Positions 2,145 to 37,771 of a stretch of DNA of 64,000 nucleotides are shown here, one piece after another (within the stretch, counting starts at the first letter, position 1; the number at the start of each line of letters is the position of its first letter). The stretch is taken from assembly GCF_000721705.1 (NCBI RefSeq), contig NZ_JOJL01000021.1:310001-374000 (forward strand). The letters are read 5' to 3'. Made by a program: the position numbers and the translations under genes. This stretch comes from Actinoplanes subtropicus. Its GTDB lineage: Bacteria; Actinomycetota; Actinomycetes; Mycobacteriales; Micromonosporaceae. The notes under the pieces were generated by a model. That model ran no database searches, had not been told where the DNA came from, and was given only the letters and a program-made list of their open reading frames with translations.

Positions 2145-4397
2145 CTATTCACCGCGCGCCCCGCTCACTCTTCGCCTCCAGACTTCGCCGCGTCGAGCCC
2201 GGCGGCGCCCGTCCCGGCGCCCTCGCTCGGCGGCGCCGCCGTGACAGCGAGTGCGGACACGGGCGCGGCCCCCGCCACAGACGCGGCCCCCGACACCGGC
2301 GCGGCCCCCGACACCGGCGCGGCCCCCGACACGGAGGCGCCCCCGGACACGGGCGCGCCCCCGGACACGGGCGCGCCCCCGGACACGGGCGCGCCCCCGG
2401 ACACGGGCGCGCCCCCGGACACGGGCCCCGGGCTGGGGCGGGTTGAGCGCGGCCAGCAGCGCCTCGGCGGTCCGCTTGCCGATCCCGGGCACCTCGGTAA
2501 TCTCCTCCACGGTGGCGGCGGACAGCCGTTTCAACGACCCGAATTGCCGCAGCAGCGCCTTGCGCCGGGTCTCGCCGAGGCCGGGCACGCTGTCCAGCGC
2601 CGACGCGGTCATCCGTTTCGACCGGCGCTGCCGGTGATACGTGATCGCGAACCGGTGCGCCTCGTCGCGGACCCGCTGCAACAAATACAACGCCTCCGAG
2701 GTGCGCGGCAGGATCACCGGGAAGTCCTCCCCCGGCAGCCACACCTCTTCGAGGCGCTTGGCCAGCCCGCACAGCGCCACGTCGGTGATGCCGAGGTCGG
2801 ACAGCACCGCGGCGACGGCGTTGACCTGCGGCTGCCCACCGTCCACCACGACCAGTTGCGGCGGGTAGGCGAATCGCCGCGCCTTGCCGGTCAACGGGTC
2901 GATCCCCGGCAGCTCGTTGGTGGCGATCTCGTCGCCGTCCTCCGAAGCCGGGATGATGGCTTCCTCCTCGATGAGCTGCCCGGCGCCCGCCTGCGCCTTG
3001 TACCGCGCGAACCGCCGCCGCATCACCTCGCTCATCGCGGACAGATCGTCCATCCCGCTGCCGTCCGCGTTGCCCCGCACGGCGAAGCGCCTGTACTCGC
3101 TCTTGCGGGCCAGGCCGTCCTCGAAGACCACCATGGACGCCACCACGTCGGTGCCCTGGATCTGCGACACGTCGAAGCACTCGATGCGCAGCGGCGACGT
3201 CTCCATCCCGAGCGCCTCGGCGATCTCGTCGAGCGCCTTGCTGCGGGTGGTCAGGTCGCCGGCCCGGCGCAGCTTGTGCCGCTGCAGCGACTCCCCCGCG
3301 TTGCGGGACACCGTCTCCAGCAGGGCACGCTTGTCGCCGCGCTGCGGGACCCGCAGGTGCACCCGGCTGCCGCGGTGGTCGGAGAGCCAGTCGGCCAGGG
3401 CCGCCGCGTCCTCCGGCAACTCGGGCACCAGCAGCTCGCGCGGCACGTCGCCCTCGCCGGACTCGCCGCCGTACATCTGCGAGCAGAAATGGTGCACCAG
3501 GTCGCCGGTGGACAGGTCCTCCACCTTCTCCACGACCCAGCCGCGCTGGCCGCGCACCCGCCCGTCGCGGACGTGGAACACCTGCACGGCCGCCTCGAGC
3601 GGGTCCTCGGCGAAGGCCACCACGTCGGCGTCGGTGCCGTCGCCCAGCACCACGGTCTGCTTTTCCATCGCGCGGCGCAGGGCGGCGATGTCGTCGCGCA
3701 GCCGGGCCGCCCGCTCGAACTCCAGCTCCTCCGAGGCCTGCAGCATCTCGCGCTCGAGGCGTTTCACGAACGTATCCGTACGCCCGGCCATGAAGTCGCA
3801 GAAGTCGTCGACGATCGCCCGGTGCTCGTCGGCGCTGACCCGCTCGACGCACGGCGCCGAGCACTTGCCGATATACCCCAGCAGGCAGGGGCGCCCGATC
3901 TGGCCGGCCCGCTTGAAGACCCCGGACGAGCACGTACGCGCCGGGAAGACCCGCAGCAGCAGGTCGAGCGTCTCGCGGATGGCCCAGGCGTGCGAATACG
4001 GCCCGAAGTAGCGCACGCCCTTGCGCTTGGCCCCGCGCATCACCTGCAGGCGGGGAAACTCCTCATTGAGGGTGACCGCGAGGAACGGGTACGACTTGTC
4101 GTCGCGGTACTTCACGTTGAACCGCGGGTCGAACTCCTTGATCCAGGAGAACTCCAGCTGGAGGGCCTCGACCTCGGTCCCGACGGTGACCCAGTCCACA
4201 CTGGCCGCGGTGGTCACCATCTGCTGGGTGCGGGCGTGCAGCGACCAGGTGTCGGCGAAGTAGGAATTCAGGCGATTCCGCAGGTTCTTGGCCTTGCCGA
4301 CATAGATCACGCGGCCGGCCGGGTCGCGGAAACGGTAGACGCCTGGCGACTCCGGAATGGTCCCCGGCGCCGGACGGTACGTGGACGGGTCTGGCAC
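2145..4397 (-). CDS. uvrC: UvrABC excinuclease subunit C with Arg/Gly-rich repeat tail
   Basis: Nucleotide-excision repair nuclease that makes both incisions around a lesion loaded by UvrB. The GIY-YIG domain is at the N-terminus ([14 protein letters not shown], residues 30-43). A four-cysteine set (156, 171, 179, 183) matches the reported iron-sulfur ligands. The UVR motif (about 222-245), RNase H-like nuclease and two helix-hairpin-helix motifs ([14 protein letters not shown]) follow. The normal protein ends near residue 655; the last 95 residues are Arg/Gly-rich and come from an 18-bp tandem array. Start: an ATG at 4427 would add ten codons, but it lies inside a damage-type promoter. The GTG at 4397 sits seven bases after the -10 box, so I prefer a leaderless start there. 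Confidence 0.93.
2256..2430 (-). repeat. 18-bp tandem array, ten units, inside uvrC 3' end
   Basis: Ten units in 18-bp register start at 2256 and recur at 2274, 2292, 2310 and so on to 2418. The core on the plus strand is GACACGGGCGCG followed by five or six C. The 5' units differ (CCGGCGCGG, GGAGGCGCC variants) while the units from 2346 on are nearly identical, suggesting recent expansion there. Because 18 is a multiple of three the uvrC frame is kept; on the minus strand it encodes the hexapeptide RVRGRA and variants such as GVGGRA. The same array read in other frames gives PVSGGA or DTGAPP, but those are shadows. Confidence 0.9.
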
Positions 4398-4404
4398 GGG
4401 CTCA

Positions 4405-4427
4405 ACAGTAGTGCGGGGGACTGACAT
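4405..4427 (-). promoter_or_regulatory. PafBC/RecA-independent damage-type promoter of uvrC
   Basis: Read on the minus strand the site is ATGTCAGTC, eight bases, then TACTGT. This fits the mycobacterial RecA-NDp consensus TTGTCRGTG-N8-TANNNT with exact spacing and 7 of 9 bases in the upstream half. The -10 hexamer (4410-4405) is followed by seven bases and the GTG at 4397. The conventional ATG at 4427 forms part of the upstream element. Confidence 0.7.
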
Positions 4428-4437
4428 TATTGTCCGA

Positions 4438-4477
4438 CCGGAGGTCCGTTGCCGCCGCCACGGCGTCGGACCTCCGG
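4438..4477 (-). terminator. Hairpin terminator downstream of the Rieske gene
   Basis: An 11-bp perfect outer stem (CCGGAGGTCCG pairing with CGGACCTCCGG) encloses a second GCCG/CGGC stem with a six-base loop. There is no T-run, which is usual for actinobacterial terminators. It lies between the Rieske stop (4521) and the uvrC promoter and would insulate uvrC from upstream transcription. Confidence 0.6.
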
Positions 4478-4520
4478 CCGACTGCGCCCAATTCTCCTGG
4501 CAGGTCGAACGCTCGGCGGA

Positions 4521-5075
4521 TCAGGCCTTGACGATGTTGTTGCCGTCCACCTTGACCTTGGTCTCGGCGAGACCCTTCGTCGCCGGCCCGGCGGTCACCG
4601 CGCCCGTGTTCACGTCGAACTTGCTGCCGTGGCAGGGGCAGCTGATCACCCCGTCGGCCACCTTGTTCACGTCGCAGCCCTGGTGCGGGCACACCTTGCT
4701 GAACGCCTTGTACTCGCCGGCGGTCGGCTGGGTGATCACGTAGTCGGCGGTGATGATGCCCCCGCCCTTCGGCACGTCGGCCGTGGTGGCCAGCGCGCTG
4801 CCGCCGGTCGAGCCGTTCGCCTTGCCGCCGGTGTCGCCGGGGTTGGCGTTGGCCTTGCCGCTGCCGGCCGGCGCCGGCTCGTTGCTGTAGTCCGTGCCGC
4901 TGGTGTTGCTGGCGGTGGTGCTGGTGCCGCAGGCGGCCAGGACCGCCGTGGCGCCGACGGCGCCGGCGCCGAGCAGGACGAGCCGGCGCGGCGAGCCGGT
5001 ACCCGGACGGCCCGGCTCCTCGGCGTTGTGCTCGGTCTCGGTCTCGGTCTCGGTCGTCGTCTGCACGTCTGTCAT
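4521..5075 (-). CDS. Rieske [2Fe-2S] lipoprotein, Tat-type signal
   Basis: A 184-residue exported iron-sulfur protein. A short acidic TETETETE-rich leader is followed by a twin-arginine (residues 30-31), a hydrophobic stretch and a lipobox LAAC with Cys49, so it is probably folded in the cytoplasm, exported by Tat and lipid-anchored outside. The Rieske ligands are Cys129-x-His131 and Cys146-x-x-His149, with Cys134 and Cys148 placed for the stabilising disulfide. The start at 5075 has a GGAGGG site; the frame is open 13 codons further up without one. It lacks the extra domains of the cytochrome bc Rieske subunit. It is likely a small electron carrier or ubiquinol-type Rieske relative; its redox partner is unknown. 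Confidence 0.88.
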   Translation of the reverse strand: MTDVQTTTETETETEHNAEEPGRPGTGSPRRLVLLGAGAVGATAVLAACGTSTTASNTSGTDYSNEPAPAGSGKANANPGDTGGKANGSTGGSALATTADVPKGGGIITADYVITQPTAGEYKAFSKVCPHQGCDVNKVADGVISCPCHGSKFDVNTGAVTAGPATKGLAETKVKVDGNNIVKA

Positions 5076-5328
5076 CGGTTGGCCCTCCAGTGCATGGTCC
5101 GCGAGTGTGGTCACGCGGCGTCGCAGTTGTGTACGCGGTCGCGGGCTGGCCGGTTCAGGAATCCCACGAAATTGTCCCGCCTCAGCGCGGTTGTTTCCCC
5201 GCTTTTGGGCACCTTTGCCCGGCGCCTTCGCGCGCTGTTAACACACGGTTCGGCGCCCGTCCGAGACTAGGATCCGGAACGGGTGCCGTAGCTATGAGTT
5301 ACCTGTGACTTAGCTGGTTACCGAGCCC

Positions 5329-8289
<2,961 letters not shown>

Positions 8290-8330
8290 CAGCCAGCCTC
8301 TCCGTACATGTGTTTGAAAGAGCCGCGGCC

Positions 8331-8353
8331 ACTCTAGCCATGGGGTACGACAA
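8331..8353 (-). promoter_or_regulatory. PafBC/RecA-independent damage-type promoter of uvrA
   Basis: On the minus strand TTGTCGTAC, eight bases, TAGAGT: an exact spacing match to TTGTCRGTG-N8-TANNNT. Unlike uvrB, uvrC and polA, the start codon is some 40 bases downstream and has its own ribosome site. Confidence 0.75.
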
Positions 8354-8429
8354 GTTTTCGCCGGAACCGGCCCGTCCAGGTGCAGCGACTGTCACATGCT
8401 GCACATTCCCGCAGTTCGCGCGGCCAAGC

Positions 8430-10229
8430 TCACTCGGCCGGGGGAACCGGCAACGACCGCATGTCCCATACTTCCACGCCGCCGACGAGCTGCGGCTTGC
8501 CGAGCGCGTCGGTCAGCGTCGCGAGCAGCGCGTCCCCGTTACGGCTGTTCGGGATGAGCACGACGACCCCGGCCCGCCAGAAGATCAGGTCGTCCCGGAT
8601 CCGCTGCCGGTCGGTGGCGTCGAGCACGGCCGGGTCGCCGTACTCGCGGACCCGCCAGAGCAGTCTGTAGGTGAACCGGCTGGGCGCGTTCCACGAGCCG
8701 GTGCGGTCGGCCGGCGGGTTGACCGGGCCCATGAAGTAGCCGCGCGGCGACCTGTACTCGAGCTTGGTCAGCGCCGCCCACCGCATCCCGTCCCGCCCGG
8801 TGGTCACCTCCGGCAGCGGCACGGTGACCAGGGTGCGGTCGGCCGCCACGTACTGCCGCCAGGTTCCCTGGGCCAGGAAGGCGGGCAGCGGATCGCCCGC
8901 GACGACCGGCAGCGGCTTGGGCGCGAGCGGCACCAGCGCGAGCGCCAGGCCGACCCGGAACCAGGTGCGGCGCCGGCCGGCGGGCCACTCGCGGACCCGG
9001 TCGGTGGCCAGCGCGACCAGCAGGCCGGCGATCGTGGCGGCCACCATAGCGAACCGGGTGACGCTCACCAGGTCGATGATCGGCAGGCGGCTGACCAGGC
9101 CGAACGGCAGCGGCACGCGAGTGTTCCAGCCGAACACCTTGAGCGTCGGGCCCATCGAGGCGACCAGCAGCAGCAGGCCGGCGATCGCCGCGGCGCGGGC
9201 GGCCACGTTGCGCCACAGCACCCGCACCGACACCACGATCATCGCGAGGCCGGCCGGCCCGAAGAAGGTGTTGTCCTCGGTGCCGCTGACGCTCATGTGC
9301 CGGGTCAGCCAGGCGTTGCCGGCCAGCGACTGGCGGGCGAACGCGCCGATCGACAGCAGATCGGTCGAATACTTGTCCGGCAGGAACGGCTGCCCGTGAT
9401 AGCTGCCCGGCCCGGTGAACTGGAAGTACAGCGGATAGGCCAGCAGCACGCCGGCGGTCACCAGCGCGATGCCGAGGCCGGCCAGGAAGTGCCGCGCCGC
9501 ACGCTTCGCCTGCTGGAAAGACATGCTTGCGTACGCAATGACAAAGACGCCGAGCGCAAGCGCGGTGAAAAGCAGGGTCTCCTCGTTGATGAAGACCTGC
9601 AGCACGACCAGCAGCCCCAGGATGATCCCGCCGCGGACCGCCCGGCCCGGCTCGCGCAGCCGCAGCACCTGCCAGACGATGAACGGGGTCACGTACTGGC
9701 TCACGAAGTTGACGTGCGCGTTCGCGTGCGACACCAGGGCCGGCGCGAAACCGCACCACAGCCCGCCGATCCAGGCCGCGACCCGGCTCGTCACCAGGTG
9801 CCGGGAGAGCACCCGGTACCAGGCGGTGGCGGTGCCGAACAGGCCCAGCGTCAGGGCCAGCACCACGGCGACGCCCGGGCCGAGGAAGTGCGTGATCGGG
9901 GCGAACGGGAGGCTGATCGCCAGCACCGACGTGTTGGCCATCATGTTCACGCCGTCCGGCACGTTCAGCCGGTCGTCGAAGAGCGGGTTCGCGCCGTGGA
10001 ACAGCACCCGCTCGCCGTGCGCGAACACGTACAGGAAGAAGCCGTGGTCGTCCTTGTTGCTCGCCAGCACCCGGCCGCTCGGGTCCCGCCAGAGCTGGAT
10101 CATCACCAGCACGGCGATCGCCAGGTAGCTCAGCGGCGCCCAGAGATCGGCCCGGCGGCGCGGCGCGGCGACCGGCGGCGTCGAGGCCTCGGGGGCCGAC
10201 TGTCCGACACCCTCGTCCACCGCACGCAT
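8430..10229 (-). CDS. Large multi-pass membrane protein, GT-C glycosyltransferase-like
   Basis: A 599-residue integral membrane protein with roughly ten or more hydrophobic segments (for example LSYLAIAVLVMIQL, VAVVLALTLGLFGTA, GIILGLLVVLQVF) and an extracytoplasmic C-terminal portion. After the first membrane segment the loop carries KDDHGFF, resembling the acidic catalytic motif of lipid-linked-sugar (GT-C) glycosyltransferases. I do not recognise a specific family. It may glycosylate a cell-envelope component, but that is inference from topology alone. The ATG at 10229 lies 23 bases after the rsgA stop, so the two are probably cotranscribed. Confidence 0.75.
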   Translation of the reverse strand: MRAVDEGVGQSAPEASTPPVAAPRRRADLWAPLSYLAIAVLVMIQLWRDPSGRVLASNKDDHGFFLYVFAHGERVLFHGANPLFDDRLNVPDGVNMMANTSVLAISLPFAPITHFLGPGVAVVLALTLGLFGTATAWYRVLSRHLVTSRVAAWIGGLWCGFAPALVSHANAHVNFVSQYVTPFIVWQVLRLREPGRAVRGGIILGLLVVLQVFINEETLLFTALALGVFVIAYASMSFQQAKRAARHFLAGLGIALVTAGVLLAYPLYFQFTGPGSYHGQPFLPDKYSTDLLSIGAFARQSLAGNAWLTRHMSVSGTEDNTFFGPAGLAMIVVSVRVLWRNVAARAAAIAGLLLLVASMGPTLKVFGWNTRVPLPFGLVSRLPIIDLVSVTRFAMVAATIAGLLVALATDRVREWPAGRRRTWFRVGLALALVPLAPKPLPVVAGDPLPAFLAQGTWRQYVAADRTLVTVPLPEVTTGRDGMRWAALTKLEYRSPRGYFMGPVNPPADRTGSWNAPSRFTYRLLWRVREYGDPAVLDATDRQRIRDDLIFWRAGVVVLIPNSRNGDALLATLTDALGKPQLVGGVEVWDMRSLPVPPAE

Positions 10230-10252
10230 CGGTGCATTCTTACAGACCGGGT

Positions 10253-11290
10253 TCAGCCCCGCCGATGACGGTGACCGGCGGCCGTGGCCTGCCGGGCCTT
10301 CTGCCGGGCGGATTCCACCTCCACCTCGTGCCGCAGCTTGCGCCAGCTGGCCAGCCGGCGCGCCGAGAGCGACCCGTTCGCCAGGGCCGCGGCGACCGCG
10401 CAGCCCGGTTCGGCTCCGTGCCGGCAGTCGCCGTAGCGACAGTGCGCGGCCAGCTCGGCGATGTCGGCGAAGGCCCGGTCCAGCCCCTCGGCGGTGTCCA
10501 GCAGGCCGACGCCCCTGATCCCCGGGGTGTCCAGCACCGCGCCGCCGCCGGGCAGCGGAACGAGATTCCGGTACGCGGTGGTGTGCCGGCCCTTGCCGTC
10601 GGCGTCACGGATCGCCTGCACCGGCATGACGGCGGCGCCGGCCAGCGCGTTGACCAGGGTCGACTTGCCGGCGCCCGAACGGCCCAGCAACGCCAGGGTG
10701 CGCCCGCCCCCGGCGTACGCCCGAATTTGGTCTATGCCTTTCCTGCCCCGCACGCTCACCGGAACCACCGGCACCCCCGGCGCGAGCTCGGCGAGCTGCC
10801 GGGCCACCGCTTCCGGATCGGTGGAGGTGTCGGCCTTGCTCAGGACGAGCAGGGGCTTCGCCCCGGACTCCCAGGCCAGCGCGAGCAACCGCTCGACCCG
10901 GGCGTCGTCGGGCTCGGGATGGATCGGCTCGACGACGGCGACCGTGTCCATGTTGGCGGCCAGCAGCTGGCCGGTGGCGTCCTTGTCGGAGGTGCGGCGG
11001 ATCAGCGCGGTACGCCGGGGCAGGATCGCCTCCAGCGTGACCCGGCGGTCGGGCCAGCGGCGGGTCACCACCCAGTCGCCGGCGCAGGGCAGCCGGACCG
11101 GGTCCCGCGCGGCGCCCAGCAGCACGCTGCCGGCCAGGCTGGCCCGGGTGACACCCGACTCGCCGAGCACGGTGCAGACGCCGCGGTCGGCCCGCAGCAC
11201 GCGCGCCGGTTCGGCGTCGGGACGGTCGAAGGGACGGTACGAGGATGCCAGGGAGTCGTCCCAGCCGAGCCGGGACAGGTCGTGCGACAT
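10253..11290 (-). CDS. rsgA: Ribosome small-subunit-dependent GTPase A
   Basis: Circularly permuted GTPase of the RsgA/YjeQ/EngC family (345 residues) that assists late 30S subunit maturation. The order is an N-terminal OB-like domain, G4-like LSKADT, then G1 GRSGAGKST, then G3-like DTPGI, which is the permuted arrangement. The C-terminal zinc element is HCRYGDCRHGAEPGC. The start is the ATG at 11290, whose product begins MSHDLSRLGWDD. It is divergent from the maleylpyruvate-isomerase-like gene across about 280 bases in which I can see no confident operator. The downstream partner is the membrane-protein gene. Confidence 0.95.
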   Translation of the reverse strand: MSHDLSRLGWDDSLASSYRPFDRPDAEPARVLRADRGVCTVLGESGVTRASLAGSVLLGAARDPVRLPCAGDWVVTRRWPDRRVTLEAILPRRTALIRRTSDKDATGQLLAANMDTVAVVEPIHPEPDDARVERLLALAWESGAKPLLVLSKADTSTDPEAVARQLAELAPGVPVVPVSVRGRKGIDQIRAYAGGGRTLALLGRSGAGKSTLVNALAGAAVMPVQAIRDADGKGRHTTAYRNLVPLPGGGAVLDTPGIRGVGLLDTAEGLDRAFADIAELAAHCRYGDCRHGAEPGCAVAAALANGSLSARRLASWRKLRHEVEVESARQKARQATAAGHRHRRG

Positions 11291-11572
11291 GGGAACCCTT
11301 TGCGGGACGGGAGGGCGCCTGGCCGGGTGGTCAGGCGTCGACCTCCGGGTGAAGGGACGCGAAAACGACTAACGGCACGTTCCCCACCTCCTCCGCGGGT
11401 CGGACCGGCGCGTCTGCGATCGACGGTAGGTCGTGCCCACCCCGAGCGAAAGCGAATTCTGTGCTGTGCTGCCACCGACGCCTGGTCCTACGGATGGCGT
11501 GGAGAATCCGAGCCCTCGCGGGGCCGTACCAGTCCCCAACCTCTTCGGCGCCATGCCAGTAGGGTGGCCCTC

Positions 11573-12277
11573 GTGACGATGGATCCGCTGGTTCTGCTCA
11601 CCGACGTCGACCGCGCCACCGACAATCTGCTGCGCGCCGCCGCCGACCTCGACCCGGCGGTGATCTCCGCGCCGTCGCTGCTGCCCGGCTGGACCGTCGG
11701 GCACGTGCTGACGCACATCGCGCGCAACGCCGACGCGTACACGAATCTGCTCACCTGGGCCCGCACCGGCGTGGAGACCCCGGCCTACGCGTCACCGGCG
11801 GCCCGCGAGGCGGCGATCGCCGAGGGCGCCGCCCGGCCGCTGCGCGAGCAACTCGAGGACATCCGCGCGGCGCACGAGCGGTTCGCCGACGCGGGCGCCG
11901 CGATGCCGGCCCAGGCGTGGACCTTCCACCTGGAGTTCATCAAGCTGCCCGCCGCCGGGGTGCCGTGGGCGCGGCTGCGCGAGGTCGAGGTGCATCACGT
12001 CGACCTGGGCCAGGGCTACACGCCGGCCAACTGGTCCGACGCGTTCGCGCTGCGGCTGCTCCGCGAGGTGGTCACCACCGCGAGCGCCGAGTTCCCGGCG
12101 ATGGTCCTGCGCCCGTACGGCATCGACCACCCGCTGACCATCGGCACCGCCGACAACCCGCCGGTCGTCGGCGGCCCGACCAAGTCGCTGGCCGCCTGGC
12201 TCTCCGGCCGCGGCGACGGCGCCGACCTGACCGTCTCGCCCGACGGCGAGCTCCCGACCCCCGCGAGGTGGAAGTGA
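11573..12277 (+). CDS. Maleylpyruvate isomerase-family mycothiol-dependent protein
   Basis: About 234 residues, with the DinB/MDMPI-fold signature PGWTVGHVLTHIARNADA near the N-terminus and EVEVHHVDLGQGY in the middle; these supply the three metal-binding histidines of mycothiol-dependent maleylpyruvate isomerases and related thiol-transferases. Start is GTG at 11573 with an AGGGTGG site; the ATG two codons in (11579) is the alternative. It is followed after two bases by an MBL-fold hydrolase, and I recall this pair near uvrA in many actinobacteria. The substrate is unknown: the family is broad and includes detoxification enzymes. Confidence 0.88.
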   Translation: MTMDPLVLLTDVDRATDNLLRAAADLDPAVISAPSLLPGWTVGHVLTHIARNADAYTNLLTWARTGVETPAYASPAAREAAIAEGAARPLREQLEDIRAAHERFADAGAAMPAQAWTFHLEFIKLPAAGVPWARLREVEVHHVDLGQGYTPANWSDAFALRLLREVVTTASAEFPAMVLRPYGIDHPLTIGTADNPPVVGGPTKSLAAWLSGRGDGADLTVSPDGELPTPARWK

Positions 12278-12279
12278 CC

Positions 12280-12924: not shown

Positions 12925-12940
12925 TCGACCGGCCAGCTGC

Positions 12941-13524: not shown

Positions 13525-13540
13525 CCAGCCGTCCACCTCG

Positions 13541-21281: not shown

Positions 21282-21282
21282 A

Positions 21283-26334: not shown

Positions 26335-27075
26335 TACGGCAGCCATTGTGTCTCATCCCAGACCCAATGGCACGGCACCCCGGAAAGCAAGCCCGGCCGC
26401 AGCCGGAACCACCCATCCAGTTAGGTTCCGCTAACCAGCTTACCGCGCCCCCACCCGCCATCCGTCATCCGCAGCGGACGACCAGATCACCCCCACTGTG
26501 TCCCACGTCGCCCGACCCCATCACTCCACCGGCGTGCCCCCACCCGCAGCGACCCAGGCTTCCTAGGAGGCTAGCTCACTTCGCCACCCCACGACCTGAC
26601 GAGGCAACGACCCAGGCCGGCCGAACCCGCGCAAGCAGGTCAGGCCCCACCGACAAAGTCCCACCCACCCGAGCTCAGACCCGGCCGCCGATTCGCACGG
26701 CAGGTTCGGAACCCCGCACACCAAGACACGCGGCCGGGCTCACGACCGCGCACGCCGAGTCACGGCGCCCAGCTCGGGCACGCGCCCACCTCCGCAACGC
26801 AGGCGAGGCTCGGGAACGCGCGCGCGGCTCGGGTCGGGGCTGCGCAGGCCGAGTTACGCTGCCCAGTTCGGGAACGCACGCTGAGCGGCCCGGGTCCGGG
26901 CCGCGCGGGCCGAGTCACGCGGGCGGGCCGGAGCCGCGCACTCGAGCCACGCGGCCCGGCTCGGAGGCCCACACGCCGAGTCACACCGCCCGCGTCGGAG
27001 CCCTGCGCCGGTTCACGCGGCCGGGGTCCGGGGCGGCCGGGCGATCCTGGGCGGCTGCTGGCCTGGCGCCGGTGG
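26335..27075. other. Gap between uvrB and the terC riboswitch
   Basis: No credible gene. The terC promoter should lie in the first 150 bases. From about 26690 to 27020 there are imperfect repeats built around GCCGAGTCACG followed by CCCAG(C/T)TCGGG, spaced some 60-100 bases apart, in very GC-rich sequence. A long plus-strand frame across it is Arg/Pro/Thr-rich and looks like a compositional artefact. Confidence 0.6.
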
Positions 27076-29193
<2,118 letters not shown>

Positions 29194-29200
29194 GGGGACC

Positions 29201-29223
29201 ACGGTACGTCGGGGGTATGACAA
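29201..29223 (-). promoter_or_regulatory. PafBC/RecA-independent damage-type promoter of uvrB
   Basis: Minus strand: TTGTCATAC, eight bases, TACCGT, with the exact RecA-NDp spacing. Seven bases separate the -10 hexamer from the ATG at 29193, consistent with transcription starting at or next to the start codon. Confidence 0.75.
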
Positions 29224-29490
29224 GTTCTCCCCGTCGAGGTCCGCTCTCGGCGAACCGGCGTGCTGAGGGTGCACATTCGCCGCGTTGTCCGGCCTTGCGC
29301 GCCTCGCCTAGCCTGTTCGGGTAGGCCGCTCGCGGCGGCCGCCCGGCACGATGACGGATCACCACACGGTCCGTCCGGCCGGACCGTGGTTGATGCGCCC
29401 CGGCTCTTCCGGGCGAGCGCACCCGCGGGGGTCGCGCTGAGCGCTGACCGGCCGCCGCGAGCGCCCTTCTCTTGTCCGGCCGGGGAGGGG

Positions 29491-30675
29491 CTATGTGCCG
29501 GGCTCCCAGCCGGTTTCCTCGGCCCAGTCGTCGGCCGCCCGCGCCTCGGTGTCGAACCACGGCTCCTTGGCCTCGCCGTACGCCGAACGGTCTTGATGTT
29601 GAAGGGCCCACTGAGCCTTCGCCGCGGCATAGGCCTCGCGGGCCGCCGGGATCGCGCGCAGGTGGTCCCGCATGAGCAGGGCGAACCGCCAGCCCGGCGA
29701 ACCCGTCACCCGCACGTGCAGATTGACCGGGCGCCCCGGGTCGGCGTTGCCGTGCAGCCTTTTCGGCCAGGTCTCGCCGGGTACGCCGCGCGTGTTGTCC
29801 GCCCACTCCCCCGGCCGCCGCGGGAAACCGGCCTCGGCCAGCCGGTCGGCCAGCGCGTCGGCCTCGTCGAGGGTGCGCACGGCGAGCATCAGGTCGATGA
29901 TGTCCTTGGCCGGCAGCCCGGCGACCGCGGTCGAGCCGATGTGCTCGACCGCCGCCTCGGCGCCGGTCGCGTGCCGGATCCGGGCGATCAGCCGGGCCGC
30001 CTGCTCGGGCCAGGTCGGGTCGGGCTCGGCGATGACCAACTCGGGGCCGAGCGGCGCGCTGGTGCGCAGCCGCAGGTGCCTCTCGAACGGCACGAGCCGC
30101 TCCCGGTAGAGCCGGTCCACCCGGTCGTGCAGCTGCTCCAGGGTGCCGTTGTTCTCCAGCAGCACGTCGCACGCGGCCCGGCGCCGGGCGTCGTCGGCCT
30201 GCGCGCTGATCCGCGCGGTCGCCTCCTCGGTGGCCATCCCGCGGGTCTCCCGGAGACGCCGCAGTCTTGACTCGAGCCGGGTCTCCACCACCAGGGCCAG
30301 ATGGTACGTGCCGGGGAGCCCCGCCTCGACCAGGAGCGGAACGTCGTTGACCACGATGGCGTCGGGCGCGGCCGCCGCGGTCATCTCGACGGTCCGCGCG
30401 CGCACCCGGGGATGGATGATCCGCTCGAGCCGGCGGCGGGCCGGCTCGTCGCCGAAGACCTTGGCACCCAGCGCCGGCCGATCGAGCTCGCCGTCGCCGG
30501 TGAGCACCCCGGACCCGAACGCCTCGACGACCTCGGCCAGCCCCGGCGTGCCGGCCGCCACCACCTCGCGGGCCAGCTTGTCGGCGTCGATGATCACCGC
30601 GCCGCGCTCGGCCAGCCGGCTCGCGACCGCGCTCTTGCCCGCCCCGATCCCGCCGGTCAATCCCACCCTCAGCAC
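29491..30675 (-). CDS. coaE: Dephospho-CoA kinase fused to a GrpB/UPF0157 domain
   Basis: A 394-residue fusion. Residues 1 to about 200 are dephospho-CoA kinase, the last step of CoA synthesis: P-loop GLTGGIGAGKS (5-15), DADKLARE and NDVPLLVE. From about residue 212 (ELVIAEPDPTWPEQAARL) the GrpB domain of the nucleotidyltransferase fold begins, with EHIGSTAVAGLPAKDIIDLM and NLHVRV. The same fusion is known in mycobacterial CoaE, where the extra domain is thought to help folding or regulate the kinase. It lies between rpsA and uvrB as in other actinobacteria. Confidence 0.96.
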   Translation of the reverse strand: MLRVGLTGGIGAGKSAVASRLAERGAVIIDADKLAREVVAAGTPGLAEVVEAFGSGVLTGDGELDRPALGAKVFGDEPARRRLERIIHPRVRARTVEMTAAAAPDAIVVNDVPLLVEAGLPGTYHLALVVETRLESRLRRLRETRGMATEEATARISAQADDARRRAACDVLLENNGTLEQLHDRVDRLYRERLVPFERHLRLRTSAPLGPELVIAEPDPTWPEQAARLIARIRHATGAEAAVEHIGSTAVAGLPAKDIIDLMLAVRTLDEADALADRLAEAGFPRRPGEWADNTRGVPGETWPKRLHGNADPGRPVNLHVRVTGSPGWRFALLMRDHLRAIPAAREAYAAAKAQWALQHQDRSAYGEAKEPWFDTEARAADDWAEETGWEPGT

Positions 30676-30778
30676 GGCTCAATTATCGTCGCCGGCGGAC
30701 CCACGTGCCCGCCCGGCCCGGCTCGCCGGTCCGGAGCTGGCGAAGGACCGCCGGCCCACGAACGGTCCCGGGCACGGC

Positions 30779-30809
30779 GAAGGGCCGCCCCGAACCGGGA
30801 CGGCCCTTC
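30779..30809 (-). terminator. Terminator after rpsA
   Basis: A 14-base stem, GAAGGGCCGCCCCG with CGGGACGGCCCTTC (one G-T pair), around an AAC loop, 19 bases past the rpsA stop. It separates rpsA from coaE. Confidence 0.85.
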
Positions 30810-30827
30810 GTACTGCCGTGTGTTACC

Positions 30828-32336
30828 TCAGCTCTTGCCGCCGGCGAGCTTCTCGCGCAGGGCGGCGAGGGCCTCGTCGGTGGCCAGGGTGCCGGCCGGC
30901 TCCTCGGCGGCCCGCGCCGGAGCCGGCGAGCTCGACGAGGTGGCCGACGCGGCGGCGGGACCACCGGCGGCGGCCGGAGCCGGGTTGAGCGCGGCCTCGG
31001 CGTCGGCGTCGCGGGACGCCTGCACCTGCTTGGTGTGCGCCTCCCAGCGCTCGCGGGCGTCGGCGTACTGCTTCTCCCACGTCTCGCGCTGCTTCTCGAA
31101 GCCCTCGAGCCACTCGCCCGTCTCCGGGTCGAAGCCCTCCGGGTAGATGTAGTTGCCCTCGGCGTCGTAGGTCGCGGCCATGCCGTACAGGGTCGGGTCG
31201 AAGTGCTCCTCGCCCTCGACGAAGCCCTCGTTGGCCTGCTTGAGCGACAGCGAGATGCGCCGGCGCTCCAGGTCGATGTCGATGACCTTGACCAGGACGT
31301 CGGAGCCCACCTGGACGACCTGCTCGGGCAGCTCGACGTGCCGCTCGGCCAGCTCGGAGATGTGCACCAGGCCCTCGATACCGTCGTCGACGCGGACGAA
31401 CGCGCCGAACGGAACCAGCTTGGTGACCTTGCCCGGCACGATCTGGTTGATCGCGTGGGTCCGGGCGAACTGGCGCCACGGGTCTTCCTGGGTCGCCTTC
31501 AGCGACAGCGAGACGCGCTCGCGGTCCAGGTCGACGTCGAGCACCTCGACCTCGACCTCCTGGCCGACCTCGACGACCTCGGAGGGGTGGTCGATGTGCT
31601 TCCAGGAGAGCTCGGAGACGTGCACCAGGCCGTCGACGCCGCCGAGGTCGACGAACGCGCCGAAGTTGACGATCGAGGAGACGACGCCCTTGCGGACCTG
31701 GCCCTTCTGCAGCTTGTTGAGGAACTCGGTGCGAACCTCGGACTGCGTCTGCTCCAGCCAGGCGCGGCGGGACAGGACCACGTTGTTGCGGTTCTTGTCC
31801 AGCTCGATGATCTTCGCCTCGAGCTCACGGCCCACGTACGGCTGCAGGTCACGCACGCGACGCATCTCGACCAGGGAGGCCGGCAGGAAGCCGCGGAGAC
31901 CGATGTCGAGGATGAGACCACCCTTGACGACCTCGATGACGGAGCCACGCACGACGCCGTCGTCTTCCTTGATCTTCTCGATCGTGCCCCAGGCCCGCTC
32001 GTACTGAGCGCGTTTCTTGGACAGGATCAGGCGGCCTTCCTTGTCCTCCTTGGTGAGAACAAGAGCCTCGATGTGGTCACCGACCGACACCACTTCCGCG
32101 GGGTCCACGTCATGCTTGATCGACAACTCGCGCGAGGGGATGACACCCTCGGTCTTGTAGCCGATGTCGAGCAGGACCTCGTCCCGATCGACCTTGACGA
32201 CGGTGCCTTCGACAATGTCGCCGTCGTTGAAGTACTTGATGGTCTCGTCGATTGCGGCGAGGAAAGCCTCCTCGGAACCGAGGTCGTCGACGGTGACCTT
32301 GTTGGCGCTCGAGGTGGCCTCGATGCTGCTCGTCAT
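30828..32336 (-). CDS. rpsA: 30S ribosomal protein S1
   Basis: A 502-residue S1 with four S1/OB domains (about 36-105, 123-188, 209-277 and 294-363), the actinobacterial number rather than the six of E. coli. Domain signatures are seen as VNFGAFVDLGGVDGLVHVSE and VPFGAFVRVDDGIEGLVHIS. The tail is Ala/Pro/Ser-rich and ends in ALREKLAGGKS. It starts at the ATG at 32336 (MTSSIEATSSANKVTVDD) with GGAGC upstream. It binds mRNA and brings it to the 30S subunit. Confidence 0.97.
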   Translation of the reverse strand: MTSSIEATSSANKVTVDDLGSEEAFLAAIDETIKYFNDGDIVEGTVVKVDRDEVLLDIGYKTEGVIPSRELSIKHDVDPAEVVSVGDHIEALVLTKEDKEGRLILSKKRAQYERAWGTIEKIKEDDGVVRGSVIEVVKGGLILDIGLRGFLPASLVEMRRVRDLQPYVGRELEAKIIELDKNRNNVVLSRRAWLEQTQSEVRTEFLNKLQKGQVRKGVVSSIVNFGAFVDLGGVDGLVHVSELSWKHIDHPSEVVEVGQEVEVEVLDVDLDRERVSLSLKATQEDPWRQFARTHAINQIVPGKVTKLVPFGAFVRVDDGIEGLVHISELAERHVELPEQVVQVGSDVLVKVIDIDLERRRISLSLKQANEGFVEGEEHFDPTLYGMAATYDAEGNYIYPEGFDPETGEWLEGFEKQRETWEKQYADARERWEAHTKQVQASRDADAEAALNPAPAAAGGPAAASATSSSSPAPARAAEEPAGTLATDEALAALREKLAGGKS

Positions 32337-32624
32337 GTGGACAGTTGCTCCGAACGGATGGATTGTGGTGTCTCTAGCGCTCCACGGAACTGCCACCGGG
32401 CACGCCACGAACGATTGAAATGATCATGACGAGACCGGTGACCACGGAGCCTGCTCCCTGCCGAGGCACACGATCCGCGAGCGCATCGACTAGCTTACCG
32501 TGCGCATTACCACAGGTTGCAAGCCCTCCTGACGACGGCGGCACAATGTTCGGCGGAAACCCCGCATCGTGCCCGTAATGTACCGAATCAGGACCATGGC
32601 GTGCCCTCACGTACCGTTGGTCAC

Positions 32625-33461
32625 GTGATCGATATTCCGGGTCCCGGGACGGCTGTCCCGGCCAGCGAGACGACGGTGCTGCGCCGGCCGGTTACCGACG
32701 ACGAGAGCCGGCGCGCGAGCCGCGCCTGGTGGGATCTCGACGCCGACGACTACCAGGGCGAACACGGCGCCTTCCTGGGCGACAACGACTTCGTCTGGTG
32801 CCCGGAGGGGCTGCGCGAGGCGGACGCCCGGCTGCTCGGCGACGTGCGCGGCCGGCGGGTGCTCGAACTGGGCGCCGGCGCCGCCGCCGGGGCGCGCTGG
32901 CTGGACGGGCAGGGCGCGAACGTGGTGGCCATGGATCTCTCCGCGGGCATGTTGCGGCAGGCGCGGGCCGGCGAGGAGAGGTCCGGCGTACGCGTGCCGC
33001 TGGCACAAGCCGACGCGCTGGCCCTGCCGTTCGCGGACAGCGTATTCGACATCGTCTGCACCGCCTTCGGGGCGATCCCGTTCGTGGCCGACTCGGGCGC
33101 CGCGATGCTCGAGGTGGCCCGGGTGCTCAGGCCCGGCGGCACCTGGGTGTTCTCGATCACCCACCCGATGCGCTGGATTTTCTGGGACGAACCGGATGAG
33201 AGCGGCCTGATCGCCCGGAACTCGTACTTCGACCGGCGGCCGTACGTCGAGGTCGACGAGCGGGGCCGGCCGACCTACGTCGAGCAGCACCGCACGCTCG
33301 GCGACCGGGTGCGCGAGCTGGTCGCGGCCGGTTTCGTGCTGCGCGACCTGATCGAGCCGGAGTGGCCGGCCGGGCACGACCAGGTCTGGGGCCAGTGGAG
33401 CCCGCTGCGCGGCCGCCTCTTCCCCGGCACCGCCATCTTCGTCGCCGACCTGCCGGCCTGA
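32625..33461 (+). CDS. Class I SAM-dependent methyltransferase
   Basis: A 278-residue methyltransferase. Motif I is VLELGAGAAAGARWL (about 79-93), followed by VVAMDLSAGMLRQA (acidic ribose-binding residue), DALALPFADSVFDIV and LRPGGTWVFSITHPM. It resembles UbiE/small-molecule methyltransferases; the substrate is unknown. The GTG at 32625 follows a TACCGT hexamer by seven bases without a ribosome site, so it is likely leaderless. It is divergent from rpsA over 288 bases that must hold the rpsA promoter. Confidence 0.9.
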   Translation: MIDIPGPGTAVPASETTVLRRPVTDDESRRASRAWWDLDADDYQGEHGAFLGDNDFVWCPEGLREADARLLGDVRGRRVLELGAGAAAGARWLDGQGANVVAMDLSAGMLRQARAGEERSGVRVPLAQADALALPFADSVFDIVCTAFGAIPFVADSGAAMLEVARVLRPGGTWVFSITHPMRWIFWDEPDESGLIARNSYFDRRPYVEVDERGRPTYVEQHRTLGDRVRELVAAGFVLRDLIEPEWPAGHDQVWGQWSPLRGRLFPGTAIFVADLPA

Positions 33462-33505
33462 CGACGCGGCCGGGGTCACCGCGACCTGACTGGTCGATTC
33501 GGCTG

Positions 33506-33585
33506 CCGGTCCACCCGGCGGCTCGTCCACCCAGCGGCTCGTCCATCCAGCGGCCGGTCCACCCAGCGGCCGGTCCACCCAGCGG
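33506..33585. repeat. 16-bp tandem repeat, five units
   Basis: Units start at 33506, 33522, 33538, 33554 and 33570, with the consensus CCGGTCCACCCAGCGG (two units have CTCGTCCA). It lies 45 bases downstream of the methyltransferase stop, in a gap of 1,043 bases without a gene. Confidence 0.88.
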
Positions 33586-33601
33586 CCGAAACGATCCACC
33601 C

Positions 33602-33682
33602 CGCGTCGCCCGAGCCTGCCTCCGCGTCGCGCAAGCCTCTCCCGCGTCGCGCAAGCCTCTCCCGCGTCGCGCAAGCGTGCCC
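33602..33682. repeat. 20-bp tandem repeat, about four units
   Basis: Units at 33623, 33643 and 33663 have the consensus CGCGTCGCGCAAGCCTCTCC; a diverged copy begins at 33602. Adjacent to, but unrelated in sequence to, the 16-bp array before it. Confidence 0.85.
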
Positions 33683-33790
33683 CGCCTCGTATTTTCCCGG
33701 TTCTGGATGTTTGGGGGTAGACCCTGGGCTCCGCCCAGACCCGGCCATCGCTGCAGAGATCAGCCTGGCGATGTTGGTTGCGGTGGGGAC

Positions 33791-33920
33791 GGTGGGTGAT
33801 CTCCTTGCGACGACAACCGTAGGGGATCTGCTGGTGGGAGGCGGCGCAAGCAAACCCCGCTTGCGCCGCCTCCCACCAGCAGATGGCGCTTTGGCTGCCG
33901 TCGCAAGGAGATCACCCACC
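33791..33920. repeat. Long two-part inverted repeat (130-bp hairpin)
   Basis: Outer arms of 22 bases (33791-33812 and 33899-33920) are perfect complements, starting GGTGGGTGATCTCCTTGCG. Inner arms of 26 bases (33826-33851 and 33859-33884) are also perfect, starting ATCTGCTGGTGGGAGGCGG, with a seven-base loop. The 13 and 14 unpaired bases between arms form a symmetric internal loop. No target duplication or terminal gene is visible. Confidence 0.92.
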
Positions 33921-33965
33921 TACGGGTTGGGGTGCGGCGGCTGCGCCGCCTTGGCCGGTGAGTGT

Positions 33966-34140
33966 GGTTGCGGCCGGCGGCCGGCGGCGGCTCGGCTGGC
34001 GGGTTGGTTGCGGCCGGCGGCCGGCGGCGGCTCGGCTGGCGGGTGTGGCGGCGGCCGGCGTCCAGCGGCGGCTCGGCTGGCGGGTTGGTTGCGGCCGGCG
34101 GCCGGCGGCGGCTCGGCTGGCGGGTTGGTTGCGGCCGGCT
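33966..34140. repeat. 40-bp tandem repeat, about four units
   Basis: Units begin near 33966, 34006, 34046, 34087 and a partial at 34127. The consensus opens GGTTGCGGCCGGCGGCCGGC and ends GGCTCGGCTGGCGGGTT. The third unit is diverged and one base longer. Frames across it on either strand are repetitive and I do not call a gene. The remainder up to 34504 shows nothing I can name. Confidence 0.88.
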
Positions 34141-34504
34141 GCGGAACGCCGGGCTCAGGAGCACAAACTCTCCACGATCGGCTCCGGGCCGCAGACCTTG
34201 ATGCGTTCGTGTTCGGTGCGCGCACCAGCGCTTCACCCCTGCCTACCCGACCGGCCGCGCCGCCCGATTTGAGGGGAATATCAGGACAGTCGGCAGGGCA
34301 GAATCCCAGCATGTGACCGCGACGATCAATATGCGGGAGCCTCGGCCAGCATGCGAAACGCAGCCCACCAACCGGCACGGCCGACCCACCATGCGAGACG
34401 GATGCCGCGCTCGGGTGAGAGCGCCGCCCGATCCTCCGCCGCTGGCCTCGGGCAAACTCAGCGACGCCGGCAAAACGCAGCGACGCCGGCAAGCTCAGCA
34501 CAGC

Positions 34505-34870
34505 TCAGCTTATGAAGTTCTGGCCTGCGTCCAGCAGGGCGGCCAGCACGGTGAGGCCGGCGGGAATGAGCCGGTAATACACCCACGTGCCGCGCCGGTC
34601 CGAGTCGACCAGGCCCGCCTCGCGCAGTACCCGCAGGTGGTGCGAGATGGTCGGGCCGGTCAGGTGGAAGGCACCGGTCAGGTCGCAGACGCAGACCTCG
34701 CCGCCGCCCGCGGAGGCGATCATCGAGAGCAGCCGGAGGCGCACCGGGTCGCCGAGCGCCTTGAACATCGGAGCAAACCTGCTCGCCTGCGCCGGGTCCA
34801 TCGGGCCCTGCGCTATCGGAGCGCCGTCGGCCGTCACGGCCGCGGTCTCCCCCGTCGATTTTCTCAGCAT
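34505..34870 (-). CDS. ArsR/SmtB-family metalloregulator
   Basis: A 121-residue winged-helix repressor. FKALGDPVRLRLLSMIA opens the domain, GGGEVCVCDLTGAFHLTG carries Cys60-Val-Cys62 in the position of the arsenite sensor (ELCVCDL) helix, and PTISHHLRVLREAGLVDSDR is the recognition helix. The start at 34870 is the ATG giving MLRKSTGETA; a GTG- or ATG-led extension to 34939 lacks support. An As(III)/Sb(III)- or related thiophilic-metal sensor is likely, yet there is no arsenic pump or reductase gene beside it. Confidence 0.88.
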   Translation of the reverse strand: MLRKSTGETAAVTADGAPIAQGPMDPAQASRFAPMFKALGDPVRLRLLSMIASAGGGEVCVCDLTGAFHLTGPTISHHLRVLREAGLVDSDRRGTWVYYRLIPAGLTVLAALLDAGQNFIS

Positions 34871-35040
34871 CGGCCCAGCCTTTCCGTGGGCCACACGCCC
34901 CGTCCCCCACGCCGGTCGATTGTGTTCCGCAACCGGCACTTTTCGCCGCCCACGACACCTCCGCTCTCCGAACCAGCCGCGCAGACCTTACATCTACAAC
35001 CTGCGTGCGAAAACCGCACCCGCCTCCCGGCCAGAATGCG

Positions 35041-37740
35041 TCAGTGGTCGGCGCCGTTCCAGTCCCGGCCGGAGCCGACCGAGACCTCCAGCGGGACCGA
35101 CAGCGGGTGGGCGCCGCCCATCTCGCGGCGGACCAGTTCCTCGAGGGCCTCGCGCTCGCCCGGCGCCACGTCGAAGACCAGTTCGTCGTGCACCTGCAGC
35201 AGCATCCGGGAGCGCAGGCCGGCCTTCCGGATGGCCGCGTCGACCCGGAGCATGGCCACCTTGATGATGTCGGCCGCCGAGCCCTGGATCGGCGCGTTGA
35301 GCGCCATCCGCTCGGCCATCTCGCGGCGCTGCCGGTTGTCGCTGGACAGGTCGGGCAGGTAGCGGCGCCGGCCGAGGATGGTGGCCGTGTAGCCGTCCTG
35401 CACCGCCCGTTTCACGACCGCCTGCAAATACTCGCGGACGCCGCCGAACCGCTCGAAATACTCCTCCATCAGCGCGCGCGCCTCGTCCACCCCGATCGTC
35501 AGCTGGTTGGACAGACCGTAGGCGGACAATCCGTACGCCAGCCCGTAGTTCATGGCTTTGATCTTGCGGCGCTGGTCGGGGACGACCTCCTCCACCGGGA
35601 CGTGGAAGACCGACGAGGCGGTGGCGGCGTGGAAGTCGAACGCCGAGTTGAACGCCGCGATCAGCGCCTCGTCGCCGGACAGGTGCGCCATGATGCGCAT
35701 CTCGATCTGGCTGTAGTCGGCCGTCATCAGCTGCTCGAAGCCGTCGCCGACGACGAACGCGCGGCGGATCCGCCGGCCCTCCTCGGTACGGATCGGGATG
35801 TTCTGCAGGTTGGGGTCGGTCGACGAGAGCCGGCCGGTGGCGGCCACGGTCTGGTTGAACGTGGTGTGGATGCGCCCGTCGTCCGAGACCGACTTGAGCA
35901 GCCCGTCGACCGTGGACTTGAGCTTGGCGACGTCCCGGTGCCGCAGCAGGTGGGCCAGCAGCGGGTCCTCGGTCTGCGCGTACAGGCTCTGCAGCGCGTC
36001 GGCATCGGTCGTGTACCCGGACTTGATCTTCTTGGTCTTGGGCAGGTTGCGCTCGGTGAACAGGATCTCCTGCAGCTGCTTGGGCGAGCCGAGGTTGAAT
36101 TCCCGGCCGACCACCTCGTGCGCCGCCTGCTGCGCCGCCTTGACCTCGGCCGCGAAATGCGCCTCGAGCTCGGAGAGATAGTGCGTGTCGGCGGCGATGC
36201 CGAGGTGCTCCATCTCGGCGAGCACCCGGGACAGCGGCTGCTCGACCTCGGTGAGCAGGGCCTGGGACGCCCCGCCGTCGCGGGACAGCTCCTCGGTGAG
36301 CACGTCGGCGAGGTCGAGGGTGGCCCGGGCCCGCAGCATCAGGCCTTCCTCGGCCTGGGCGTCGTGGCTCTCCTCCAGACCGGACAGCAGGTCGAGCTGG
36401 CCGCTCGCCGGCTCCTCGACCCGCAGCTCACGCTTGAGGTAGCGCAGGGCGAGATCGGTCAGGTCGTACGCCCGCTGGTCGGGTTTCGCCAGGTAGGCCG
36501 CGAGCGCCGTGTCGACGCGGACGCCCTCGAGGCGCCAGCCGTGCGCGCGCATCGCCAGCGACGCGGGCTTGGCGTCGTGCACCACCTTGGGCCGGTCGGG
36601 GTCGGCCAGCCAGGTCGCGACCGCGGTCTCGTCGGACTGGTCGAGCGCGGCCGGGTCGAACCACCCGGCCGGGCCGTCGCCGGTGGCGACCGCTACACCG
36701 GTGAGGGTGCCGGTGCCGCGGCCGAACGAGCCGGTGACGGCGACGCCGACCGGCGCCCCGGCCGCGTGCCTGGTCAGCCAGGCGGCGACCTCGCCGGCCC
36801 GCAGGGTCTGCCCGGACAGGTCGAAGCCGGCCTCCGCCTCGGGCTCGACCGCGTCCAGGTACGAATACAGCCGCTCCCGCAGGACCCGGAACTCGAGCGC
36901 GTCGAAGACCTGGTGGACGGCCTCGCGGTCCCACCCGTGCCACTTCGCGTCGGCCGGCGTCAGCGGCAGCTCGAGCTCGCGCTTGAGCGCGTTCACCTCG
37001 TAGTTGCGCAGCACCCCGGCCAGGTTGGCGCGCAGGCTGTCGCCGGCCTTGCCCTTGATCTTGTCGACGTGGGCGACGATGCCGTCGAGGCCGCCGAACT
37101 CGTTGATCCACTTGGCGGCGGTCTTGTCGCCGACGCCGGGCACCCCGGGCAGGTTGTCGCTGGCCTCGCCGACCAGGGCCGCCTTCTCCCGGTAGCGGGA
37201 CGGGGGCACGAAGTATTTCGCCTCGATCGCCTCGGGGGTCATCCGCCACACCTCGGAGACGCCGCGCACCGGGTAGAGGATCGTGGTGTGCTCGTCGGCC
37301 AGCTGGAACGCGTCACGGTCGCCGGTCGAGATGATCACTTCCATGCCGGCCTCGCGGCCCTGCCGGGAGAGGGTGGCGATCACGTCGTCGGCCTCGAAGC
37401 CCTCCTTCTCCACCACGGGGATGCGCAGGGCGTCGAGGACCTCCTTGATCAGGCTGACCTGACCCAGGAACGGCTTCGGCGTCTCGGAGCGGCCGGCCTT
37501 GTACTCCGGGTAGATCGCCGTGCGGAAGGAGATGCGGGAGACGTCGAACGCGACCACGATGTGCGTCGGCTTCTCGTCGCGCAGCATGTTGATCAGCATC
37601 GAGGTGAAGCCGAACACCGCGTTCGTCGCCTGGCCGGTGGCGGTGCTGAAGTTGTCCACCGGCAGGGCGTAATAGGCCCGATACGCCAGCGAGTGGCCGT
37701 CGAGCAGCAGCAAACGGGGGGTCAGGGCGTCGTCGCTCAC
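35041..37740 (-). CDS. polA: DNA polymerase I
   Basis: An 899-residue family A polymerase for Okazaki-fragment processing and repair synthesis. The 5' nuclease domain begins RLLLLDGHSLAYRAYYALPV. In the central domain no DxE exonuclease motif is visible (VGVAVTGSFGRGTGTLTG at the expected place), so proofreading is probably absent, as in other actinobacteria. Polymerase motif A is DYSQIEMRIMAHLSGD, motif B RRKIKAMNYGLAYGLSAYG and motif C VHDELVFD. The GTG at 37740 lies eight bases after a damage-type -10 box, so the transcript is probably leaderless. The ArsR gene is 170 bases downstream. Confidence 0.96.
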   Translation of the reverse strand: MSDDALTPRLLLLDGHSLAYRAYYALPVDNFSTATGQATNAVFGFTSMLINMLRDEKPTHIVVAFDVSRISFRTAIYPEYKAGRSETPKPFLGQVSLIKEVLDALRIPVVEKEGFEADDVIATLSRQGREAGMEVIISTGDRDAFQLADEHTTILYPVRGVSEVWRMTPEAIEAKYFVPPSRYREKAALVGEASDNLPGVPGVGDKTAAKWINEFGGLDGIVAHVDKIKGKAGDSLRANLAGVLRNYEVNALKRELELPLTPADAKWHGWDREAVHQVFDALEFRVLRERLYSYLDAVEPEAEAGFDLSGQTLRAGEVAAWLTRHAAGAPVGVAVTGSFGRGTGTLTGVAVATGDGPAGWFDPAALDQSDETAVATWLADPDRPKVVHDAKPASLAMRAHGWRLEGVRVDTALAAYLAKPDQRAYDLTDLALRYLKRELRVEEPASGQLDLLSGLEESHDAQAEEGLMLRARATLDLADVLTEELSRDGGASQALLTEVEQPLSRVLAEMEHLGIAADTHYLSELEAHFAAEVKAAQQAAHEVVGREFNLGSPKQLQEILFTERNLPKTKKIKSGYTTDADALQSLYAQTEDPLLAHLLRHRDVAKLKSTVDGLLKSVSDDGRIHTTFNQTVAATGRLSSTDPNLQNIPIRTEEGRRIRRAFVVGDGFEQLMTADYSQIEMRIMAHLSGDEALIAAFNSAFDFHAATASSVFHVPVEEVVPDQRRKIKAMNYGLAYGLSAYGLSNQLTIGVDEARALMEEYFERFGGVREYLQAVVKRAVQDGYTATILGRRRYLPDLSSDNRQRREMAERMALNAPIQGSAADIIKVAMLRVDAAIRKAGLRSRMLLQVHDELVFDVAPGEREALEELVRREMGGAHPLSVPLEVSVGSGRDWNGADH

Positions 37741-37748
37741 GTCCAGAA

Positions 37749-37771
37749 ACTCTAGCCCTGGGGTACGACAG
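37749..37771 (-). promoter_or_regulatory. PafBC/RecA-independent damage-type promoter of polA
   Basis: Minus strand: CTGTCGTAC, eight bases, TAGAGT. Spacing and both halves match the uvrA site almost base for base (GTCGTACCCCA in common). Eight bases then lead to the GTG at 37740. Confidence 0.72.

Follow-up and report, generated by a model that had tools for sequence, protein, structure and literature searches.

The window, by which we mean the whole 64-kb stretch of DNA analyzed here, carries uvrC, uvrA, uvrB and polA on its minus strand, and an element of the form TGTCR-N11-TANNNT precedes each of them on the same strand. The identity of the genes rests on NCBIfam equivalogs: uvrC (2145..4397; NF001824, TIGR00194), uvrA (5329..8289; NF001503, TIGR00630), uvrB (27076..29193; NF003673, TIGR00631) and polA (35041..37740; NF004397, TIGR00593). 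The element of uvrC (4427-4405) reads ATGTCAGTC-CCCCGCAC-TACTGT, with the TGTC core at 4426-4423 and TANNNT at 4410-4405. Those of uvrA (8353-8331), uvrB (29223-29201) and polA (37771-37749) read TTGTCGTAC-CCCATGGC-TAGAGT, TTGTCATAC-CCCCGACG-TACCGT and CTGTCGTAC-CCCAGGGC-TAGAGT. All four sites have the TGTCR core, and in all four a spacer of eight bases separates the nine-base block from TANNNT. The shared motif that the first-pass annotation had reported was thus confirmed by direct reading, and it also withstood shuffling. The pattern TGTCRNNCN8TANNNT, which was fitted to the four window sites themselves, matched four times in the window, versus a mean of 0.22 and a maximum of 1 in 100 dinucleotide-preserving shuffles. 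A less fitted core, TGTC-N12-TANNNT, likewise gave four matches on both strands of the window, all of them the four repair-gene sites.

The elements had been described as lying immediately ahead of their genes. This was true of uvrC, uvrB and polA, whose starts (GTG, ATG and GTG) lie 7, 7 and 8 nt past TANNNT, but not of uvrA, whose GTG lies 41 nt past it. At uvrC, the base preceding TGTC creates an in-frame ATG at 4427. We disfavor this codon as the start of the gene: the corresponding A was present in only one of four relatives, whereas a start codon 6-7 nt past TANNNT was kept in all four, and the GTG at 4397 is therefore the likely start. A classical sigma-70 type promoter would have a TTGACA-like hexamer 16-18 nt upstream of its -10 element; at uvrA, the one site read (by eye), GAAAAC stands 17 nt ahead of TAGAGT.

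The four sites resemble the RecA-NDp (P1) promoter of mycobacteria, whose consensus is tTGTCRgtg-8 nt-TannnT (Gamulin 2004, as quoted in PMC5656591). TGTCR is followed by TAC at three window sites and by GTC at one, and three of the four share TGTCRTACCCC. GTG, a lower-case and less strict part of the consensus, follows TGTCR at none of the four, and for this reason we call the window sites a variant of the RecA-NDp class. The ends had been given earlier as GTAC or GTAT; no site ends in GTAT, that of uvrB is CATAC, and the form is better written R[T/G]ACC(C).

A scan of the host genome (11.26 Mb, 215 contigs), as suggested in the first-pass annotation, bore the motif out. TGTCRTACCCC-N5-TANNNT matched 16 times versus 0 for the reversed control. 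The looser TGTCRNNCN8TANNNT matched 65 times versus 18 for its control, so that about one quarter of the 65 may be chance matches. Among these 65, the triplet following TGTCR was TAC in 34, GAC in 10 and CAC in 6. The GTG form, TGTCRGTGN8TANNNT, is also present in the host, with nine matches versus one for the control. Positions -4 to -2 before TGTC were A or T in 79-86% of the 28 matches with TACC. An ATG or GTG was found 6-8 nt past TANNNT in 40 of the 65 matches, while other offsets up to 59 had a mean of 1.9 per offset. Judged from these start codons, most motif-bearing genes of the host look leaderless.

A coding-like frame started within 90 nt in 53 of the 65 looser matches, and the other 12 had no assigned frame. 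Five of the 53 were the window genes and recA (site at C7:3673-3694, GTG 7 nt past TANNNT); the remaining 48 were scanned with Pfam, and 7 of these had no match at an E value of 0.001. In addition to recA, the repair-type genes behind the looser matches encode NAD-dependent DNA ligase (ligA), an EndIII-like glycosylase (nth), RecQ, two AlkZ-like glycosylases, a RadA-like protein and a DEDD/GIY-YIG nuclease. Other Pfam identities were DNA polymerase III delta' (holB), LexA, ScpA, a Prim-Pol protein and a DEAD helicase, and further matches preceded genes for FtsH, for a member of the glutamate-cysteine-ligase family and for a WYL regulator. Families without a repair role (VOC, ABC, kinase, mutase and others) were also represented, and in many cases no repair gene followed the match. 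As a motif target, lexA is doubtful: the first frame starts 72 nt downstream and the LexA domain only at residue 66 of that frame. The WYL-domain regulator is preceded by the motif at G000:C50:32123-32144, and its counterpart in a genome of the same genus (64% identical; G323:C30:641271) is likewise motif-bearing. PafBC may thus feed a second WYL regulator.

We next consider whether the motif is kept at orthologous genes. The UvrB protein of the host is 84-93% identical to those of five genomes of its own family group (f1), 83% to that of Hamadaea tsunoensis and 77% to those of Saccharothrix, Mycolicibacterium and Nocardia. Hamadaea is nested among the f1 genomes in a tree of UvrB, though some supports are weak; from these protein comparisons, the host probably belongs to the Micromonosporaceae. 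The recA, uvrC and polA loci and the uvrB loci of two relatives (G204 and G296) were reached without use of the motif, by protein search or synteny. The core was kept upstream of recA in all 11 f1 genomes. The orthologous uvrC site was exact in three of four relatives, and the fourth had one mismatch in TGTC. The polA site, located by synteny, was kept in five of five relatives. For uvrB, the site was found in five of five relatives, including G204 and G296, and in H. tsunoensis, and for uvrA in five relatives; the agreement at uvrA and at three uvrB loci is not independent evidence, because these loci were reached through motif matches. The conservation argument is therefore carried by recA, uvrC and polA. 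The spelling of the promoter varies inside the f1 family: at uvrC, uvrB and polA, TACC stands in some relatives and GCGG, GAGG, GTGC, GGGG or CAGC in others. The earlier statement that GTG-type ends are replaced thus holds for the four window sites, from which GTG is absent, but not throughout the family, since some relatives use GTG, GAGG, GCGG or still other ends at part of the genes.

TGTCRTACCCC itself was present in 34 of the 41 family genomes sampled (145 matches versus 2 for the reversed pattern) and, across the phylum, in 41 of 296 genomes (2 matches for the reversed pattern). Downstream frames were sampled for 60 of the 129 matches in other family genomes and for 20 of the 22 in two genomes that lie outside the class. 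In 26 of the 60 family matches, the frame resembled a gene behind a host match (one weakly), and four had no frame; the 26 include UvrA (5), an ABC protein (4), UvrB (3), DUF4230 (3), RecA (1), RadA (1) and the DEDD nuclease (1). In the two genomes outside the class, 2 of the 20 agreed (RecA and HolB), and eight had no frame according to a GC-based caller. Among other frames behind the relatives' matches, two resembled a 3-methyladenine glycosylase and one each a macrodomain protein, RecN and Ku, as judged by eye only.

Across Actinomycetota, the region upstream of recA was compared in 58 genomes: the core was exact in 47, only near in 2 and absent in 7, and the recA N-terminus was missing in 2. 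Within the class of the host, the core was found in 25 of 26 genomes. The bases after TGTC at recA were R[T/G]ACC in 10 of the 11 f1 genomes and ATAGG in one, and in family f2 GGTG in five of six and GGAG in one. The spelling was GTG in f4 (one genome), f5 and f6, GAG in f7 and f8, GCG in f3 and GAGC in f50. ACC was found in f9, f31, f44, f45 and f65 and in one genome each of f47, f41 and f17; elsewhere the spelling differs or is hard to read. At named uvrB loci, the exact core was present in 26 of 43. Fifteen of these have GTG, including Mycolicibacterium, Nocardia, Planomonospora, Nocardioides and Arthrobacter; Hamadaea and Saccharothrix have TACC, two Acidimicrobiales or Acidimicrobiaceae genomes CACC, and one unclassified actinomycetote GACC; the remaining six have AG-, GCG- or other spellings. 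The exact core was not found at the other 17 of the 43 uvrB loci, including those of Corynebacterium, Rothia, Mobiluncus and both bifidobacteria examined. We conclude that, in the host family, TACC or GACC has mostly taken the place of the mycobacterial GTG end. GTG, GAG or GCG persists in other lineages, and ACC-type spelling reappears outside the class. The latter is not the local variant that the first-pass annotation had assumed, being family-wide and found also in lineages outside the class.

The regulator of this promoter class, PafBC, is encoded in the host genome. The predicted products of pafB (C4:80122-81105) and pafC (C4:81105-82127) match the M. smegmatis PafB and PafC chains of 7p5x (E 1.6e-71 and 2.1e-72), whereas NCBIfam profiles gave no match for either protein. 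The two orthologues are adjacent to each other and near the Pup locus: pafA (C4:74983-76338) ends 3.8 kb upstream of pafB-pafC, and a homologue search proposed earlier is thereby answered in the positive. We take a PrcA-like end farther upstream and Tat-like genes downstream, recognized by eye, to flank the locus. The 3.8-kb gap holds other frames; the mycobacterial pafA, pafB and pafC are organized as a single operon (as described in PMC5656591). The host PafC has a Ser/Gly-repeat stretch without counterpart in the M. smegmatis PafC aligned to it. PafB has, in each of the 11 f1 genomes, about four extra residues directly before the recognition helix that are not in the mycobacterial chain.

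The host system is like the mycobacterial RecA-NDp system in its TGTCR core, its eight-base spacing to TANNNT, the presence of pafBC in the genome and the position of the motif ahead of recA, uvrA, uvrB and other repair genes. It differs in having TAC or GTC for GTG at the window sites, with R[T/G]ACC prevailing in the family, and in the A/T-rich stretch right before TGTC. The bases after TGTCR vary already in mycobacteria, as the M. tuberculosis PafBC motif is given in the excerpt of PMC8151990 as TGTCGG, TGTCAG or TGTCAC followed by N10-TA-N3-T. TGTCAC also occurs in the host (the six matches with CAC), but the commonest host form, TGTCGT/TGTCAT (the 34 matches with TAC), is outside the three forms given there. 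The same promoter class exists outside mycobacteria: RecA-NDp-type promoters of S. rimosus recA and of SCO6735 in Streptomyces are cited in PMC9411070. In two f4 genomes, Streptomyces by inference, the GTG form gave 52 and 49 matches versus 2 and 0 for the reversed pattern; the uvrB spelling of Streptomyces oceani is GTAG. The M. smegmatis PafBC motif is said, in the excerpted text of PMC9380542, not to be conserved in S. venezuelae, and the GTG-rich f4 genomes sit uneasily with this remark.

Taken together, the four elements are very probably PafBC-dependent promoters of the RecA-NDp type, belonging to a sigma-adaptation regulon whose spelling has drifted. The sites themselves, their genome-wide excess, their conservation at orthologues and the presence of pafB, pafC and pafA form its observed part. 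In M. smegmatis, single-stranded DNA activates PafBC, PafB touches the -26 motif and PafC touches sigma domain 4 (as reported in PMC11804915). In the M. smegmatis pafBC mutant, uvrB expression was down by 37% (PMC5656591, as excerpted). By extrapolation from the M. smegmatis work, which is our basis for PafBC binding and dependence, sigma adaptation, damage induction and the transcription starts in the host, single-stranded DNA arising from DNA damage would activate the PafB-PafC heterodimer. PafB would then read TGTCR and the following bases in the -26 region, PafC would make the bridge to the housekeeping sigma factor (domain 4), and promoter opening at TANNNT by the holoenzyme would yield mostly leaderless repair-gene mRNAs. 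In the host family, drift would have turned the GTG after TGTCR mainly into TACC or GACC. The one PafBC regulon postulated in the first-pass annotation gains support from the genome-wide class, its retention at orthologues and the presence of pafBC; its extent does not stand, as the set of motif-bearing genes is far larger than excision repair and polA. Counting against the PafBC reading are the lack of the consensus GTG at the four sites, the share of chance matches among the 65, the many matches not followed by a repair gene, and the cases in which the core is missing ahead of recA (7 of 58 genomes) or uvrB (17 of 43 loci).

Constitutive promoters could look similar. A leaderless housekeeping promoter needs TANNNT and a start codon 6-8 nt on in any case, and several motif-preceded genes are non-repair genes; TANNNT would then be the -10 element and the TGTCR block a general promoter preference read by no activator. 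However, the upstream block is kept with fixed spacing over large distances (at recA, in 47 of 58 genomes), the reversed pattern of equal base composition yields few or no matches, and the repair-gene bias is left unexplained, so we regard this reading as very unlikely. A reader of the motif other than PafBC is highly unlikely. ClgR has in the past been reported to bind the mycobacterial RecA-independent promoter (cited in PMC5656591), and another WYL regulator is possible because the host genome has eight WYL-domain matches, six besides PafB and PafC, one of which is itself motif-bearing. Nevertheless, P1 induction in M. smegmatis was fully blocked without pafBC, according to the same source, and by cryo-EM, PafB is positioned on the -26 motif (as reported in PMC11804915).

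It is extremely unlikely that LexA induces the four genes and that the motif is incidental. Matches resembling the SOS box were at chance level in the window (56 versus 48.3 expected), and the best scores for TCGAAC-N4-GTTCGA at the four genes were 8-9 of 12, while 93 of 500 random 280-nt pieces reached at least 9. Three LexA-like genes above the family cut-off are nonetheless present in the host genome, and in S. venezuelae, LexA probably targets uvrA (PMC9380542, as excerpted). The uvrA leader also has a box-like stretch at 8301-8316 (9 of 12, a score to be expected by chance), with a similar stretch (8 of 12) in a same-genus relative but not in the other four relatives. Joint control of uvrA by LexA is possible and compatible with the SOS-box results.

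On top of PafBC control, the bases after TGTCR might constitute a specificity code that, in Actinomycetota, switched more than once together with the PafB recognition helix, making lineage regulons partly orthogonal; we consider this rather unlikely. The residue x1 in EAF-x1-R-x-FERDK shows a suggestive pattern: ACC goes with Q, R or H at this position, and GTG, GAG or GCG with a small or acidic residue. The comparison comprised 44 of the 58 genomes, those in which the PafB helix could be read and the recA site was exact; 14 were dropped for lack of a helix, an exact site or a recA N-terminus in the locus, and the recA sites of f14, f20, f22 and f36 in the set may be chance matches. Base 8 of TGTCRNNN was C in 21 of 31 genomes with Q, K, R or H at x1 versus 0 of 13 with other residues, a grouping chosen after inspection of the data; counted by family, it was 7 of 15 versus 0 of 7 (Fisher p 0.051). 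K occurred mostly with the non-C class (C in one of six rows), and exceptions to the trend were G288 (K with GGAGG) and G307 (Q with ATAGG). In a scan of PafB columns with fitted splits, x1 (Q49, p 0.003) ranked below at least 12 other columns, several of them outside the DNA-binding domain. We rejected the covariation as an established link, because shared ancestry explains it equally well and other columns rank higher.

This promoter class and its regulator are already known, as is its occurrence in other actinobacteria (PMC8223512 and PMC9411070, as excerpted). No description of the ACC spelling was found in the literature searched, which covered few of the key papers, and none of the literature matches listed concerned PafBC in Micromonosporaceae or Acidimicrobiia. 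By our scans, this type of promoter seems to be widespread among Actinomycetota, with drift affecting the bases that follow TGTCR. The drifted spelling makes it testable which part of PafB reads these bases. The DNA-damage regulons of antibiotic-producing actinomycetes would thus be predictable with lineage-specific matrices rather than with the mycobacterial one.
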